Shown: one piece after another, positions 5,955 to 50,167 of the stretch
Layout of the letters: every line of letters begins with the position of its first letter
Numbering within the stretch: the first letter of the stretch is position 1
From: a virus
DNA length: 64,000 nt
IMG/VR virus record: IMGVR_UViG_3300025929_000013
Location: 44,848 to 108,847 of that record
Reading direction: 5' to 3' (one strand)
The notes under the pieces: generated by a model
What the model was told of the DNA's origin: nothing
What the model saw: the letters and a program-made list of their open reading frames with translations, nothing else
The model's database searches: none
Position numbers and translations under genes: made by a program

Positions 5955-6128
5955 TTACATCGAGGACTTGCGGGCCGCCTGGTCGGCGGTCGGCATGGGG
6001 CTGATCGGCGAGGCGCCCGGGGCAGGTGCCGGATGAGCGCGCACGCCCGGCTGGCCCTGTGCGGCGAGCGAGGTGGAGAACTGGTGCGGGCTGATCGGCG
6101 CGGCGCCGGAGGTGTCGTAGCCGGACAT
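5955..6128 (-). CDS. hypothetical protein
   Basis: 57 aa, Pro/Ala/Ser-rich and probably disordered. Its ATG overlaps the stop of the 108-aa gene (TGATG), which supports coupled translation. Confidence 0.5.
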   Translation of the reverse strand: MSGYDTSGAAPISPHQFSTSLAAQGQPGVRAHPAPAPGASPISPMPTADQAARKSSM

Positions 6129-6454
6129 CAGTTCGGCTCCGGACCGAGGCCGTCGAACCCGGCGCGCCAGGTGTCCTTCTGGCCGTGGCTGGAGGGCAGC
6201 ATGTAGACGTTGCGGCCCAGGCCCTCGGCGGGGGCGGGGTAGGCGCGGGTGGCGGTGACCACGTTGCAGGCGCCGGAGGTCTCCTTGGTCTGGGAGCGGC
6301 GGCCGACCGGCTGGCGGGTGGGGTCCTTGGTCTTGCCCGAGCCCTTCTTGGGCACGAGGGTGCCGCCCTTGACCCCGACGGCGCGCGAGGACGTGGCGTC
6401 CGAGGTGCCGATCAAGGGCCCCATCGGCGAGATCTCGTTGCGGCTCTTGGCCAT
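6128..6454 (-). CDS. hypothetical basic protein
   Basis: 108 aa, lysine- and glycine-rich (residues 25-60), probably extended. First gene of a unit that starts after a TATACT-containing gap. Function unknown. Confidence 0.6.
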   Translation of the reverse strand: MAKSRNEISPMGPLIGTSDATSSRAVGVKGGTLVPKKGSGKTKDPTRQPVGRRSQTKETSGACNVVTATRAYPAPAEGLGRNVYMLPSSHGQKDTWRAGFDGLGPEPN

Positions 6455-9464: not shown

Positions 9465-9772
9465 TACCCGCCCCCTGTCAGTTCGAGGAAGTGGTCCTTG
9501 GTGATCACCGCGTACTCGCGGCCCGCGAGGTCGACCATGACCACCGGCTCGCGCCCGTCGAGCAGCGCCTGGCGCTCGACCGTCTCCAGCACGTCGCGGC
9601 GCAGGCTGAAGCTGCGCGACGCGGTCGTCTTGTACTCGAAGGAGTGGTAGCGGTTGCGCGCGTCGTTCTTCGCGACCCAGCCGTTGCCGGAGCCGGGCGT
9701 CAGGGTGCTGCCGGTCTCGCGGGCGCCGTTGCGCTCCTGCTTGCGGCTGCGCCGCTGTCCCGGGGTGCTCAT
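9464..9772 (-). CDS. putative small PD-(D/E)XK-type nuclease
   Basis: 102 aa. The pattern KNDARNRYHSFEYKTT...SL...EKQALL-like, with D, then E-x-K, resembles short Hjc-type phage nucleases (D...ExK). The C-terminal strand REYAVI fits. The stop overlaps the WhiB ATG region. Nuclease activity is inference. Confidence 0.45.
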   Translation of the reverse strand: MSTPGQRRSRKQERNGARETGSTLTPGSGNGWVAKNDARNRYHSFEYKTTASRSFSLRRDVLETVERQALLDGREPVVMVDLAGREYAVITKDHFLELTGGG

Positions 9773-10086
9773 GCCTCGATCCACTTTCCGCCGGTGATCC
9801 AGCCGTGGTTGCCGCAGTGCGGGCACAGCAGCGAGGGCACGACCGTGAGCGGGTCCTGGCACACCAGCTCGTGCTTGGAGCGCGCCAGGTGCCCGGGGAC
9901 GTTGGTGAACCCGATCCACCCGCCGCACCAGTGCTCGTCGGCGGCGTTCCAGTGCCAGGTCATCAGGCCGACGCGGGCGGCGGTGCCGGACTGGGTCTCC
10001 CAGTCGGCGTACTGATCGTCCCCGAGCGGAAAGACGCTCTCGTTGCCGGGCCATGTGGTCGGCGGCGTGTCGTGTTCCCTGATCAT
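9769..10086 (-). CDS. DUF6527-like zinc-binding protein
   Basis: 105 aa. A tryptophan-rich core (MTWHWNAADEHWCGGWIGF) and a C-terminal CPHCGNHGWITGGKW knuckle match a small protein family common in actinophages. Overlaps both neighbours by 4 nt. Function unknown. Confidence 0.6.
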   Translation of the reverse strand: MIREHDTPPTTWPGNESVFPLGDDQYADWETQSGTAARVGLMTWHWNAADEHWCGGWIGFTNVPGHLARSKHELVCQDPLTVVPSLLCPHCGNHGWITGGKWIEA

Positions 10087-10472
10087 CGCGCCACCGCCTC
10101 GGGTGCGTCGGCCGCGGTCAGGTGCACCGGGCGCAGGCCGTCGGGGTGGTCGGTCAGGGTGTCGCGTGCGATGCGCAGCCCGTCCTGGTAGGCGCTCCAG
10201 CGCTGTCCCAGGCCCGGATCGGCGCGCTCCATCTCGGCGTAGCGCCCGGCGGCCTCGTACTCCCGGCACAGCGCGGTGACCGCGCCGTGGTAGCGCGAGC
10301 GCAGCGCCTGGAGCTCGTCGACCAGATAGCCGATCTCGTCGTTGTCGTGGCTCCAGCCGCGTTCGGCGTCCAGCAGCGCGGTGACGACCTCGGCCAGCGA
10401 CGGGTACGCGGGCGAATCCGGGGAGGTGTTGCGCAGGCGGTAGGTCAGGCGGCGCAGGTCGTTCAGGCTCAT
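10083..10472 (-). CDS. hypothetical protein
   Basis: 129 aa, helical, acidic middle. Overlaps both neighbours by about 4 nt, so it is translated with them. No recognised motif. Confidence 0.65.
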   Translation of the reverse strand: MSLNDLRRLTYRLRNTSPDSPAYPSLAEVVTALLDAERGWSHDNDEIGYLVDELQALRSRYHGAVTALCREYEAAGRYAEMERADPGLGQRWSAYQDGLRIARDTLTDHPDGLRPVHLTAADAPEAVAR

Positions 10473-46380: not shown

Positions 46381-47647
46381 TCAGTTGGTGTTGACGACCA
46401 CGACGGACTGATCGGTGATCAGGCCCATACCGAGGATCGCGTACCAAGCCAGTGCATGTTCACGTCCGAAGTCCAAGACGCCGCCGTCGCGCAATTCCAC
46501 TGGTAGAGAGATCGCGTGGCCGTAGGCGTTGTCGCCGATGAACGTTGAGGAGTACACATCGACCGGAACGGTGTTCTGTGTCTTCGTGACCTGAGTCGTC
46601 TCGATGAAGATCACGTCGAACAGACGTCCCACCTCACCAAGCATGAAATTCCCCGGAGCCGCATATTTAGTGACCTCGATGAACTCGGGCGCTTCACGCA
46701 AATGGCGCGATTGGTGCGGATGGATGAATCCGACGTAAGTCTCCCCAATCCGGGGCACATTCTTCGTCGCCAGGGTCTCCGCGACGTCGCGGATGGCGGC
46801 CGGGGTGAGGTTGTACGTCCCGGTCAGTCCGTTGGTGGAGGTGCCCACGGTGCCGAAGTCGTACGGGCTCTTGTTGGTGATCGAGCCGCTGGGGTTGGAG
46901 TACCCGAACAGCAGGCTGCTGGCCGTCTGCAACGTTGATTGGGCCAGATTATCAAGGTATTGAGCCATGTTGCGGCCCAGGAGACGGCTGGCCGAGGCCA
47001 TGACGTCGTCGAAGGACGCGTTGAGCAACAGCTCGGTGACAGCCACCGCATATCCATGCTCGGCGACTGTGATCGAGAACTGCGACGCCGTGAGGGCGTT
47101 GGTCTGCATGCGAACACCCTCGACGAGCTGCGCCGCAGCGCCCAGGTTGTTGTATCGCATGAAGTTGATGGTAAGACCTGGAGATACACCCAGTTCTGTC
47201 TTCTTCACAGCGAACTGCTCGAAGCGCAGAATCGGCATGGCCTGGAAGCAAGTTGTTACCCAGCAGTTACCCACTAGGGCCAGGTCGTTTCCGCCTGGCT
47301 CTGCACCTTTTCCATCGGTGCAGATCGGACTGTATCTTCGGCTCCAGTCCCGGTCGGCTATACCGGCCTTCCGGTCCTGTTGGAGTCGCCTCGCGTGCAG
47401 TCTCTACGGCGTCCCCGGTACGGGTTCCCTCGGTATTCCCCGTGCCACGAGTCATGTTCTACGAGCGTCGGTGGGGTTCACCGATACAGCGTGGTGTTTA
47501 CTCGCCGGTCACCCGACGAGGTCCCCTGGTGTCGAGGATTTCCTTCGACCATATAGTTTGGATCGCCTGCGACAGCTGGTTGTTGGACCCGCTGTAGTTC
47601 GTCGGCGAACCCGACAAGTTGGGTGTACCCGTGATCGCATTGGCCAT
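46381..47647 (-). CDS. major capsid protein, split by a group I intron
   Basis: Two exons: 47535-47647 and 46381-47248 (326 aa spliced). Exon 1 reads MANAITGTPNLSG...TIWSKEI; exon 2 resumes LFQAMPILRFEQFAVKKTELG. The join, ATC-CT|C-TTC, is in frame and restores the WSKE-LFQAMP-FEQFA segment typical of this HK97-fold capsid family. An AGGAG lies 9 nt before the ATG at 47647. Without splicing, translation stops after 49 codons (47498). A start called at about 47274 inside the intron would be wrong. Confidence 0.92.
47249..47534 (-). ncRNA. group I self-splicing intron
   Basis: 286 nt. Exon 1 ends in U and the intron ends in G, as expected. The internal guide AGGGGA (intron nt 8-13) pairs GGGA with exon UCCU, with a U-G wobble at the splice site, and its AG pairs with the CU of exon 2 (P10). 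The P7 strands AGACTGCAC (47395-47403) and GATACAGTCC (within 47327-47338) match the group I core, and P9-type hairpins lie near the 3' end. No homing endonuclease is encoded. Confidence 0.9.
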
Positions 47648-47683: not shown

Positions 47684-48466
47684 TCAGCGGTAGAGACCGC
47701 CCTGCCGGACCTGGTTGGAGGCTGCCGCGAGTAGTTGCTGCCGATGCGTCGCGTACTCCGCCATGGACATCTCGGAGATGTCTTTCGGAGTCAGCGTGCG
47801 CTGTGCCGGGTCTGTGTCCATCGGGCCGATGTTGGGGCGTCCGGTGGCGGACACCCCGCGCAGGCTGGCCTGACGCGCCTGCGCCTGTGCTCCCGAGATC
47901 GCGTCAACGATCGCGGAGGATTTGGCCGTGAGCATCGCGATCGAGGCGTCGATCTCCTCACGGGTATTGCCGGTCACCAGGTCCAGAAGCTCCGGGGCGA
48001 TCGCATCACGCGCCTCGTCGACCTTCGCCTGGGTGTACGACTTCAGCTCGTTGTACTGCCGTTCCTTGTCGAAGATCGCCCGCTCTTCCAGCCGCTGGCG
48101 CTCCATCTCCGCCATCTGGGCCTGCCAGCGCTCGGACTCCTGGCGAACGAAGTCCTTGGCGGACATCTCCGCCTCTTCCCGCGCCTTCTGCGCCGCGTCC
48201 GCGTCCGCCTTCGCCTTGGCGATCGCGTCGGCCTCGGCCTGGCGCTCGGTCTCCAGCGCCGCGAGCTTGGACTGGATCGAGTTGATCGTCTCGGACTGCT
48301 CGCTCAGGCGGCCGTAGAGCTTGTCGCGCTCGTCCTGGCGGGCCTTCTGAAGCGCCGCCTCGGTGAACATGCGCTCGGCGGCGGGGTCTGCGGACGGCGG
48401 GGGAGTGGGCACCGGCACCGGGATGGTGATGGTGCCTGCGGGGTCGGTGGTCGGATCGAGGTCCAC
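47684..48466 (-). CDS. scaffolding protein
   Basis: 260 aa. A long coiled coil (about residues 35-150, many AEADAIAKAKADADAAQK repeats), Pro-rich start and helical C-terminal part that would bind the capsid shell. Between portal and capsid genes. Confidence 0.82.
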   Translation of the reverse strand: MDLDPTTDPAGTITIPVPVPTPPPSADPAAERMFTEAALQKARQDERDKLYGRLSEQSETINSIQSKLAALETERQAEADAIAKAKADADAAQKAREEAEMSAKDFVRQESERWQAQMAEMERQRLEERAIFDKERQYNELKSYTQAKVDEARDAIAPELLDLVTGNTREEIDASIAMLTAKSSAIVDAISGAQAQARQASLRGVSATGRPNIGPMDTDPAQRTLTPKDISEMSMAEYATHRQQLLAAASNQVRQGGLYR

Positions 48467-48469
48467 GTG

Positions 48470-50167
48470 TCACGTCTCCGAAGACTTGTTGGTGTCCGGA
48501 TTTCGCCACTGGGCCAATTTCGTCCCTGCGGCGAGTGCCACGAGTTCGTCCTGTATTTTCTTCGTGTCCTCGCTCAGCCCGCCCACGCCGGGAAGGCCGG
48601 GGAGCGGAGCGGGGTCGCCGGACGCGGGGCCCGGCGGTGGTGCGGGCGGCTCTACCCCCTCTGGGGGAAGGCCGGTCATGTCGAGGATAACACTGGCTAT
48701 CTGAGCCTTTAGTAGGTCCAGTACACCCTGGTGTTTGGTCTCCTCAAGCTGCTCGTCGAAGATCTCGGCCAGTGCGTCGGCCGGGAACTCCTCGCCCAAT
48801 TCTCGCAGCGCCCCGCGCTTGGACGTGAGCCCCAGCTGCAACTTAACCATCAGCTCGTTGAGTTTGACCAGGACGTCGACCGGCAGCGGCGGCGGGAAGT
48901 CGGCGACCGTGCGGTAGACGAGGGGGTCGGTGGGGTCGAGCACGTCGGCCTGGCTGGGATCTGTCTTGAGTCCCTCGGTGTCCGGGTCGTAGTTCAGGGT
49001 CTGCGGCTCGAACAGGAACAGCGTGCGCAGGGCGAGCTCGTTGATGCGCGCGAACCCCGCGGAGTACTGGATGATCTTGCGGTGGTAGCGCAACATCATG
49101 GGCTGATATTGAATGCTGAGTGCCACGCCACTGGTGTTGCTGACCGGCTGCTCCTGGCCGAGCGCGTTCTCCGGCACGCCCGTCATCTCGTGCATCGCGG
49201 TCTTCAAAAACTGGAGGTACTGGAGCGCCCACTCCAGCTCGATGTTGTTCTCCAGGTTGTAGACCTTGGCGTCCTTGGGCAGCCCGCCCCACACCTTGCG
49301 AGGGCCCTTCTCAAGATTCGAAGCTTTGGCCCCTGAGATAATCGTCACCGGCGCCGCGTGGTAGTCGATGATCTCGCTGATGTTCGTGGCTTGCTCGTTG
49401 AGTTCCCTGTTCAGCGAGATGATGTCCGCGATGTCGGACAGCCCCCAGGGCGACCCGGGCACCTCGATATTCGTGATCGGCACGATCGGGATCTCGCCGA
49501 GCCCGTTGGGGTGCGAGTCGATCAGCTCATCGTTGATGTACTCCTCGACATACTCGTCCGTGATGATCTCAGTGTATGTATATACCTGCCGCGTGCCCTC
49601 TGTAGAGGTACCCCAAAAGCGGTATTTTAGCTTAAAACGGACAAGTCGCTCAGGATCGTGTGGATGATATTCAGGGAATGCGAAGCTCGGGTTGATCGCC
49701 AGCAGCCGCACGCGGCCGGGGTGCTGCATCCCCGCGGCGTCCGTCCACGCGGGCTCATACGCCACCTTCACGAAGACGTCCCCGCAGACCCCGGCGAGCT
49801 CGCCGATCTGCATCAGGAGCTTGTCCTTGCGGTTGTCGACCTCCCACACCCTTTTGAGCAGGGCGGGGACGATGTGCTCGGTGGCCTTGTCGCTGGCGAA
49901 GTGCACGCCGCGCGAGAAAGTGAAGGAGGTGATGAAGCGGGAGAACGCCGCCGTGTAGTTGAAGGTGAGCTGCGTTTCGCCCGATTCGCGACGATATCCC
50001 CAGTGATGTCCCAAAAACCACGCCAGATTCTGGGCATAACGGTTCAAACGTGGACCATGCACCTCAAATTCCTCGTCGGCCAATTCGACGAGTCCGAGGG
50101 GTGATATAGCAACGGTGAGATCCGACGCCGCGGCCCGCATGGAGGGGGACGGGAACGACATCGACAC
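48470..50167 (-). CDS. portal protein
   Basis: 565 aa, GTG at 50167 (ATG at 50161 also possible; GGGAGG upstream). SPP1-gp6/DUF-type portal: WFLGHHWGYRR, KVAYEPAW, DIISLNRELNEQATNISEIIDYHAAPV, LQFLKTAMHEMTGVPENALGQEQPVSNTSGVAL, typical of portal clip and stem regions. C-terminal Pro-rich tail. Confidence 0.9.
   Translation of the reverse strand: MSMSFPSPSMRAAASDLTVAISPLGLVELADEEFEVHGPRLNRYAQNLAWFLGHHWGYRRESGETQLTFNYTAAFSRFITSFTFSRGVHFASDKATEHIVPALLKRVWEVDNRKDKLLMQIGELAGVCGDVFVKVAYEPAWTDAAGMQHPGRVRLLAINPSFAFPEYHPHDPERLVRFKLKYRFWGTSTEGTRQVYTYTEIITDEYVEEYINDELIDSHPNGLGEIPIVPITNIEVPGSPWGLSDIADIISLNRELNEQATNISEIIDYHAAPVTIISGAKASNLEKGPRKVWGGLPKDAKVYNLENNIELEWALQYLQFLKTAMHEMTGVPENALGQEQPVSNTSGVALSIQYQPMMLRYHRKIIQYSAGFARINELALRTLFLFEPQTLNYDPDTEGLKTDPSQADVLDPTDPLVYRTVADFPPPLPVDVLVKLNELMVKLQLGLTSKRGALRELGEEFPADALAEIFDEQLEETKHQGVLDLLKAQIASVILDMTGLPPEGVEPPAPPPGPASGDPAPLPGLPGVGGLSEDTKKIQDELVALAAGTKLAQWRNPDTNKSSET

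Follow-up and report, generated by a model that had tools for sequence, protein, structure and literature searches.

The window analyzed here is a 64,000-nt stretch of viral DNA, corresponding to positions 44848-108847 of a 108,847-base viral record. Its structural genes all lie on the minus strand, in the order portal gene, gene in the scaffolding position and major capsid gene, and the last of these is found in two exons (Table 1). The capsid frame starts at the ATG at 47647, with AGGAG at 47661-47657. As the initial annotation of this DNA had claimed, removing 286 nt joins WSKEI to LFQAMP in frame: the joined exons yield an open frame of 326 amino acids (...WSKEI-L-FQAMP...) whose product matches phrog_1357 (major head protein; E 8e-65). 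This joined protein is 70-71% identical (tblastn) to the capsids of the Streptomyces phages Alone3, LuckySocke, BRock, pSt2308 and GiJojo, and the segment WSKEILFQAMP is unbroken in all three of the Streptomyces phage capsids that were aligned (Alone3, pSt2308 and BRock). The virus hosting the intron is a large actinophage-like virus of the Streptomyces phage BRock/Alone3 type.

Table 1. Features of the capsid locus and of the intron RNA in the window.
Feature	Position	Strand	Remarks
Portal gene, upstream neighbour	48470..50167	-	phrog_64, E 1e-36; intron-free in the window
Gene in scaffolding gene position	47684-48466	-	between portal and capsid genes
Exon 1, major capsid gene	47535..47647	-	113 nt, 37 codons + 2 nt; ends ...ATCCT
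Group I intron	47249..47534	-	286 nt; starts CGACACC, ends ACTTG; exact empty site, covariance model and RF00028
P1	47522..47538	-	exon UCCU (47538-47535) with guide GGGA (47525-47522); U.G at splice site
P2 hairpin	47501..47520	-	GUGA loop; from fold; same hairpin in relatives
P3	47389..47494	-	47494-47489 with 47394-47389; 4/6 pairs change on both sides in 39 introns
P4 and P5	47430..47484	-	P4 47484-47480/47434-47430; P5 47476-47473/47441-47438; invariant, 100% paired in 39 introns
P6 and P6a	47408..47429	-	hexaloop L6 GUACCG (47421-47416); 99.6% paired
P7	47328..47402	-	47402-47398 with 47332-47328; 98.5% paired; both partners changed in two pairs
P8	47340..47387	-	extended stem, 7-nt loop L8 containing CGGUAU (47365-47360); basal pairs covary
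L6-L8 kissing pair	47360..47421	-	GUACCG (47421-47416) with CGGUAU (47365-47360); 6 bp
P9, P9.1 and P9.2 hairpins	47259..47323	-	from fold; layout conserved in relatives
Exon 2, major capsid gene	46381..47248	-	starts C-TTC-CAG; 89% amino acid identity to L005

The boundaries of the insert were defined against L005, an IMG/VR contig with an intron-less sibling capsid gene (90% amino acid identity). BLAST aligned the window to this contig in two pieces, one ending at 47534 and the other resuming at 47248, which meet at a single L005 base; the insertion is therefore exact. The best 80 capsid relatives are all uninterrupted, in a ranking that itself favours uninterrupted genes. The 5' exon ends in U (47535) and the intron in G (47249), and the guide pairs with the end of the 5' exon, all as originally described. 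The same intron was found in L088, but this contig matches the window without a single difference along 4905 nt and does not constitute independent evidence. We detected no endonuclease ORF in the 286-nt intron and no match to the HNH, GIY-YIG and LAGLIDADG_3 profiles across the 108.8-kb record, in agreement with the earlier description of an intron devoid of homing endonuclease.

The length of the intron is not a multiple of three and the unspliced capsid frame reads WSKEILDTRGPRRVTGE followed by a stop, soon past the proposed splice site. The longest downstream ORF begins at GTG 47274, within the intron, so that gene callers would drop the N-terminus of the capsid, as had been anticipated. 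Exon 1 presents 97% amino acid identity to L005 (residues 1-38), and its codon differences (20 synonymous and one non-synonymous) indicate that it is translated now or was until recently.

We gathered relatives of the intron with two collection scans using core patterns and one scan of bacterial genomes. Together, the three scans yielded about 70 distinct relatives, of which 39, including the window intron, were aligned. The core was assigned from this alignment rather than from the minimum free energy fold, because the latter cannot show the P3/P7 pseudoknot. Across the 39 introns, the pairs of the named structure are formed in 95.9% of cells, and 19 of the 38 show changes in both partners. 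The core covariation score reached 0.273, relative to 0.106 for shuffled data and at most 0.061 when partners were slid. In the window intron, P3 contains one A.A mismatch, P4 (UCGGU/ACCGA) and P5 (CCCC/GGGG) are separated by the joints GAA and AAU. One pair of P6/P6a is swapped between GC and CG in 17 of the 39 introns. The P7 strands that had been announced are present (GACUG/CAGUC), with J8/7 (AAGAUA) just ahead of the 3' strand, and the hallmark motif AAGATACAGTCC has a single match in the 64-kb window. Five of the six basal pairs of P8 change on both sides (85% paired in the 39 introns), and P10 is short (about 2 bp). P7.1/P7.2 are absent, which we take to speak against subgroup IA. The loop L5 is extended to ~31 nt (47441-47473, minus strand), a length similar to that of introns inserted after capsid residue 47 (site 47) and much greater than that of most others.

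One additional contact emerged from the alignment: the loops L6 and L8 form a kissing pair. Each of the six pairs shows changes in both partners, and 97.4% of the cells are paired across the 39 introns; when the loops of each intron were compared with permuted loops, none of 10000 permutations reached the observed score. The intron of mycobacteriophage BAKA possesses an equivalent pair (GCACAU/AUGUGU), and relatives with a short P8 are without it. To our knowledge, this contact lies outside the standard long-range pairings of group I introns (P11, P13 and P14), and we know of no such kissing pair in other group I introns; a narrow literature search likewise returned no description of an L6-L8 contact.

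We built a covariance model from the 39 introns. The window intron scored 153.9 bits (E 7e-34), with one match in the window and one in the whole record; because this intron is one of the 39 rows of the model, its score is partly high by construction. BAKA, LittleE and Rfam constitute tests that are independent of the model rows. Outside these rows, the model detected the introns of the mycobacteriophages BAKA (116.3 bits; E 2.5e-26) and LittleE (99.6 bits; E 1.8e-22), and it found no match in 83 intron-less loci. These results exclude chance. BLAST of the window intron against cultured phages gave no match; with a family member as query, it retrieved 29 mycobacteriophage records, BAKA and LittleE among them. 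In the comparison with group I profiles that the initial annotation had recommended, Rfam returned no group I match on the window, either at threshold or with E up to 10, and the single-record search with RF00028 (Intron_gpI) aligned the window intron over its full length at 17.1 bits (E 0.0028), under the gathering threshold of 50, which is a database cut-off and not a biological definition. The RF00028 model under-represents phage types (PMC11878797). An intron inserted at the same site in contig L115 clears the threshold (56.7 bits), and Rfam at threshold misses most of the family copies checked.

Splicing of the BAKA and LittleE introns was proven by Pope and colleagues in 2013 using RT-PCR, complemented for the LittleE capsid by N-terminal sequencing (PMC3706429). 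The authors did not settle on a type for these introns ('most likely a group I'), and they reported 98% identity between the two over 156 bp (PMC3706429). Three lines of evidence support the insert of the major capsid gene being a group I intron, namely its exact empty site, a full core that covaries across 39 introns and its kinship with LittleE and BAKA, and the initial annotation was correct in place, kind and detail. We hold with high confidence that it is a splicing intron of the LittleE/BAKA family. Its splicing, which we infer for this copy and which is proven in relatives, is near certain. In the expected reaction, the exon end UCCU would pair with the guide GGGA to form P1, a guanosine bound in P7 would attack after U47535, and the freed exon would then attack after the terminal G47249. 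The exons would be joined as ATC-CT^C-TTC (I-L-F), restoring the full-length capsid.

We then examined where the members of this family are inserted. In capsid genes of the window type, the approximate residues that precede an intron are 34, 38 (the site of the window), 47, 52, 70, 99, 230 and 251, and the portal gene of the relative L089 carries a family intron after residue 36. At all nine verified sites, the joined exons give back the intact protein in frame. Gaps and RF00028 matches indicate further capsid sites near residues 139, 237 and 306, for a total of about 11 sites. Based on tblastn gaps, the capsid genes of L122 and L105 apparently contain five introns each and that of L119 four, and one contig presents five introns across its capsid and portal genes; some of these introns were read solely from gaps. 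These capsid genes (L122:5600-8014, minus strand; L105:1600-4178, minus strand; L119:4322-6490, plus strand) are apparently divided into five or six exons, some of them only about 12-14 codons long. A 3-kb actinobacterial contig also contains four such introns within 2 kb (L148:519-2471). The exon ends in GGU at eight of the nine verified sites and in CCU in the window, and the guides match accordingly. Pairing of introns with their own exons scored 9.8, relative to 8.35 for permuted combinations, and only 12 of 5000 permutations were as high (20 introns at 10 sites).

Elsewhere, the host genes of the family were classified for 29 fragments: 24 encode a major head protein, one a major tail protein and four were without head or tail assignment. 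The major-head hosts best match phrog_10, 2263, 752, 29, 1357 and 14242 (weakly in the case of L123). The scans relied on RNA motifs alone and the gene bias was not built into the query; introns at the same site can nevertheless share descent, distant relationships exist among some of the PHROG capsid families, and the search motif was derived from a single intron lineage. When whole viral records were scanned, the matches to the model clustered in one place in each record, with the exception of the portal copy. Judging from these sequences, major capsid genes appear to be the main residence of the family and to represent at least six protein families, which would be a new observation.

Several other introns were encountered during these searches. 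A second group I lineage occupies the same capsid and portal genes (L119:5612-5864 and 6112-6375, L085:504-758 and L089:2884-3131); its members score above the RF00028 threshold, are unmatched by our model and are repeatedly found near capsid residue 306. Group I introns of Patescibacteria (CPR), located in or beside rRNA genes (L150-L153 and L155-L157), have the P4-P5 core motif in common with the phage introns. Finally, a capsid intron at site 47 was identified in the genome of Streptomyces diastatochromogenes ATCC 21481 (L154:1050-1236; about 6.177 Mb in the record), and this cultured strain may hold the phage.

How these introns reached so many sites can be explained in several ways. The initial annotation considered that the intron would need help in trans to move or is fixed. 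This is incomplete, since the relatives, which occupy numerous positions and capsid genes that are unrelated to each other, point to ectopic movement. Insertion at the RNA level appears to be the most likely route, and we would place it only a little short of an even chance: the family of small actinophage introns, to which those of LittleE and BAKA belong, has reached numerous positions in the genes of capsid and other virion proteins, and it would have done so by reverse splicing into abundant late mRNA, followed by reverse transcription and recombination. Reverse splicing fits the data because the target is short and the bias is toward abundant mRNA. The presence of related copies at many guide-matched sites without shared flanks is what this route leads one to expect, which makes it compatible and does not constitute proof. 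The GGU pattern could also arise by selection for splicing-competent sites under any route. In one record, the introns at portal site 36 and capsid site 34 are mutual nearest relatives (85% identity) and their flanks are unrelated, which suggests copying within a genome. The RVT_1 profile detected no reverse transcriptase in the record of the window.

DNA homing, mediated by an endonuclease acting in trans or encoded by an intron ORF that was later lost, with the intron now inherited along with the capsid gene, is a possible though rather doubtful explanation. LAGLIDADG-like ORFs do exist in a minority of the family (L131, L096 and LittleE), most copies being without one. Homing or descent predicts that introns at the same site group together, and those at site 47 do so in a single clade with good support; at least seven other distinct introns occupy the site of the window. 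However, the nearest relatives of the window intron sit at other sites, the endonuclease profiles were empty across its record, and the approximately 11 sites in one gene type together with six PHROG capsid families would each require a new endonuclease specificity. Homing or descent accounts for shared sites such as 47 but does not easily account for many sites per gene or for transfer between unrelated capsid genes. Support in the intron-core tree is too weak to tell whether the introns descend by site or by genome.

Alternatively, resident introns could have come to resemble each other across sites by recombining or by gene conversion, without new insertions, which we consider unlikely. Two capsid introns of L091 share an identical 3' stretch of ~90 nt and have different 5' halves, and in the window intron the P8 region is closest to that of a site-70 intron, the guide and P2 being closest to those of site-38 introns. 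Conversion cannot account for how a new site was first occupied, however, and at many sites the intron is the only one in its genome. The L091 mosaic (9700-10300, minus strand), whose differing 5' halves include a changed P4 helix, indicates that resident introns do also undergo conversion.

That the insert is not spliced at all, with the capsid translated from GTG 47274, exon 1 being a dead remnant, or the ribosome bypassing the insert, is highly improbable: the long ORF does begin at that codon, but this start has no clear ribosome site and drops 37 residues that are nearly all conserved in the closest relative, the insert is out of frame and leads to an early stop, the ribozyme core covaries, and the differences in exon 1 are almost exclusively synonymous. 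An intein, translational bypass and a pseudogene were rejected based on the frame, the stops and the conserved exon 1.

Returning to RNA-level spread, we tentatively propose, somewhat less firmly than the route itself, that these tiny and mostly endonuclease-free introns specialise on major capsid mRNAs and spread by RNA from one unrelated capsid gene to another, which would give rise to capsid genes with as many as about five introns, with the L6-L8 contact holding the core. In the literature searched, which covered few subscription journals, neither the extent of the invasion nor the preference for capsid genes nor the kissing contact seems to have been described. The debate over RNA-level spread of group I introns in nature has so far drawn mainly on rRNA phylogenies, and this family offers a natural system in which to address it; a bias toward a highly expressed late gene is predicted by RNA-level spread and not by homing. 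Cultured carriers are available, namely cluster J mycobacteriophages and the S. diastatochromogenes genome. For annotation, such capsid genes come out split or N-terminally shortened.

Group I introns that interrupt a capsid gene are already known; the intron of the window is a new member of the LittleE/BAKA family at a new site. The LittleE intron (about 819 nt) similarly interrupts a major capsid gene and belongs to the same family by the covariance model (PMC3706429), but it contains an endonuclease gene, and the capsid gene concerned is unrelated to that of the window and is interrupted at a different site. The minor-tail intron of BAKA, a cluster J mycobacteriophage (265 nt; PMC3706429), resembles that of the window in being small, lacking an endonuclease, residing in a virion gene, matching the same model and forming the L6-L8 pair. 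It differs in its gene (minor tail), its site and the genus of its host, and its identity to the closest of the family members tested is only ~74%. The closest parallel in terms of mobility is found among the reverse-splicing group I introns of fungal rDNA, which also occupy many ectopic sites with a short match between guide and target and often without an endonuclease (PMC1299323). Those introns reside in rRNA genes of eukaryotes, whereas the family described here is inserted in protein genes of phages, mostly of a single gene class.
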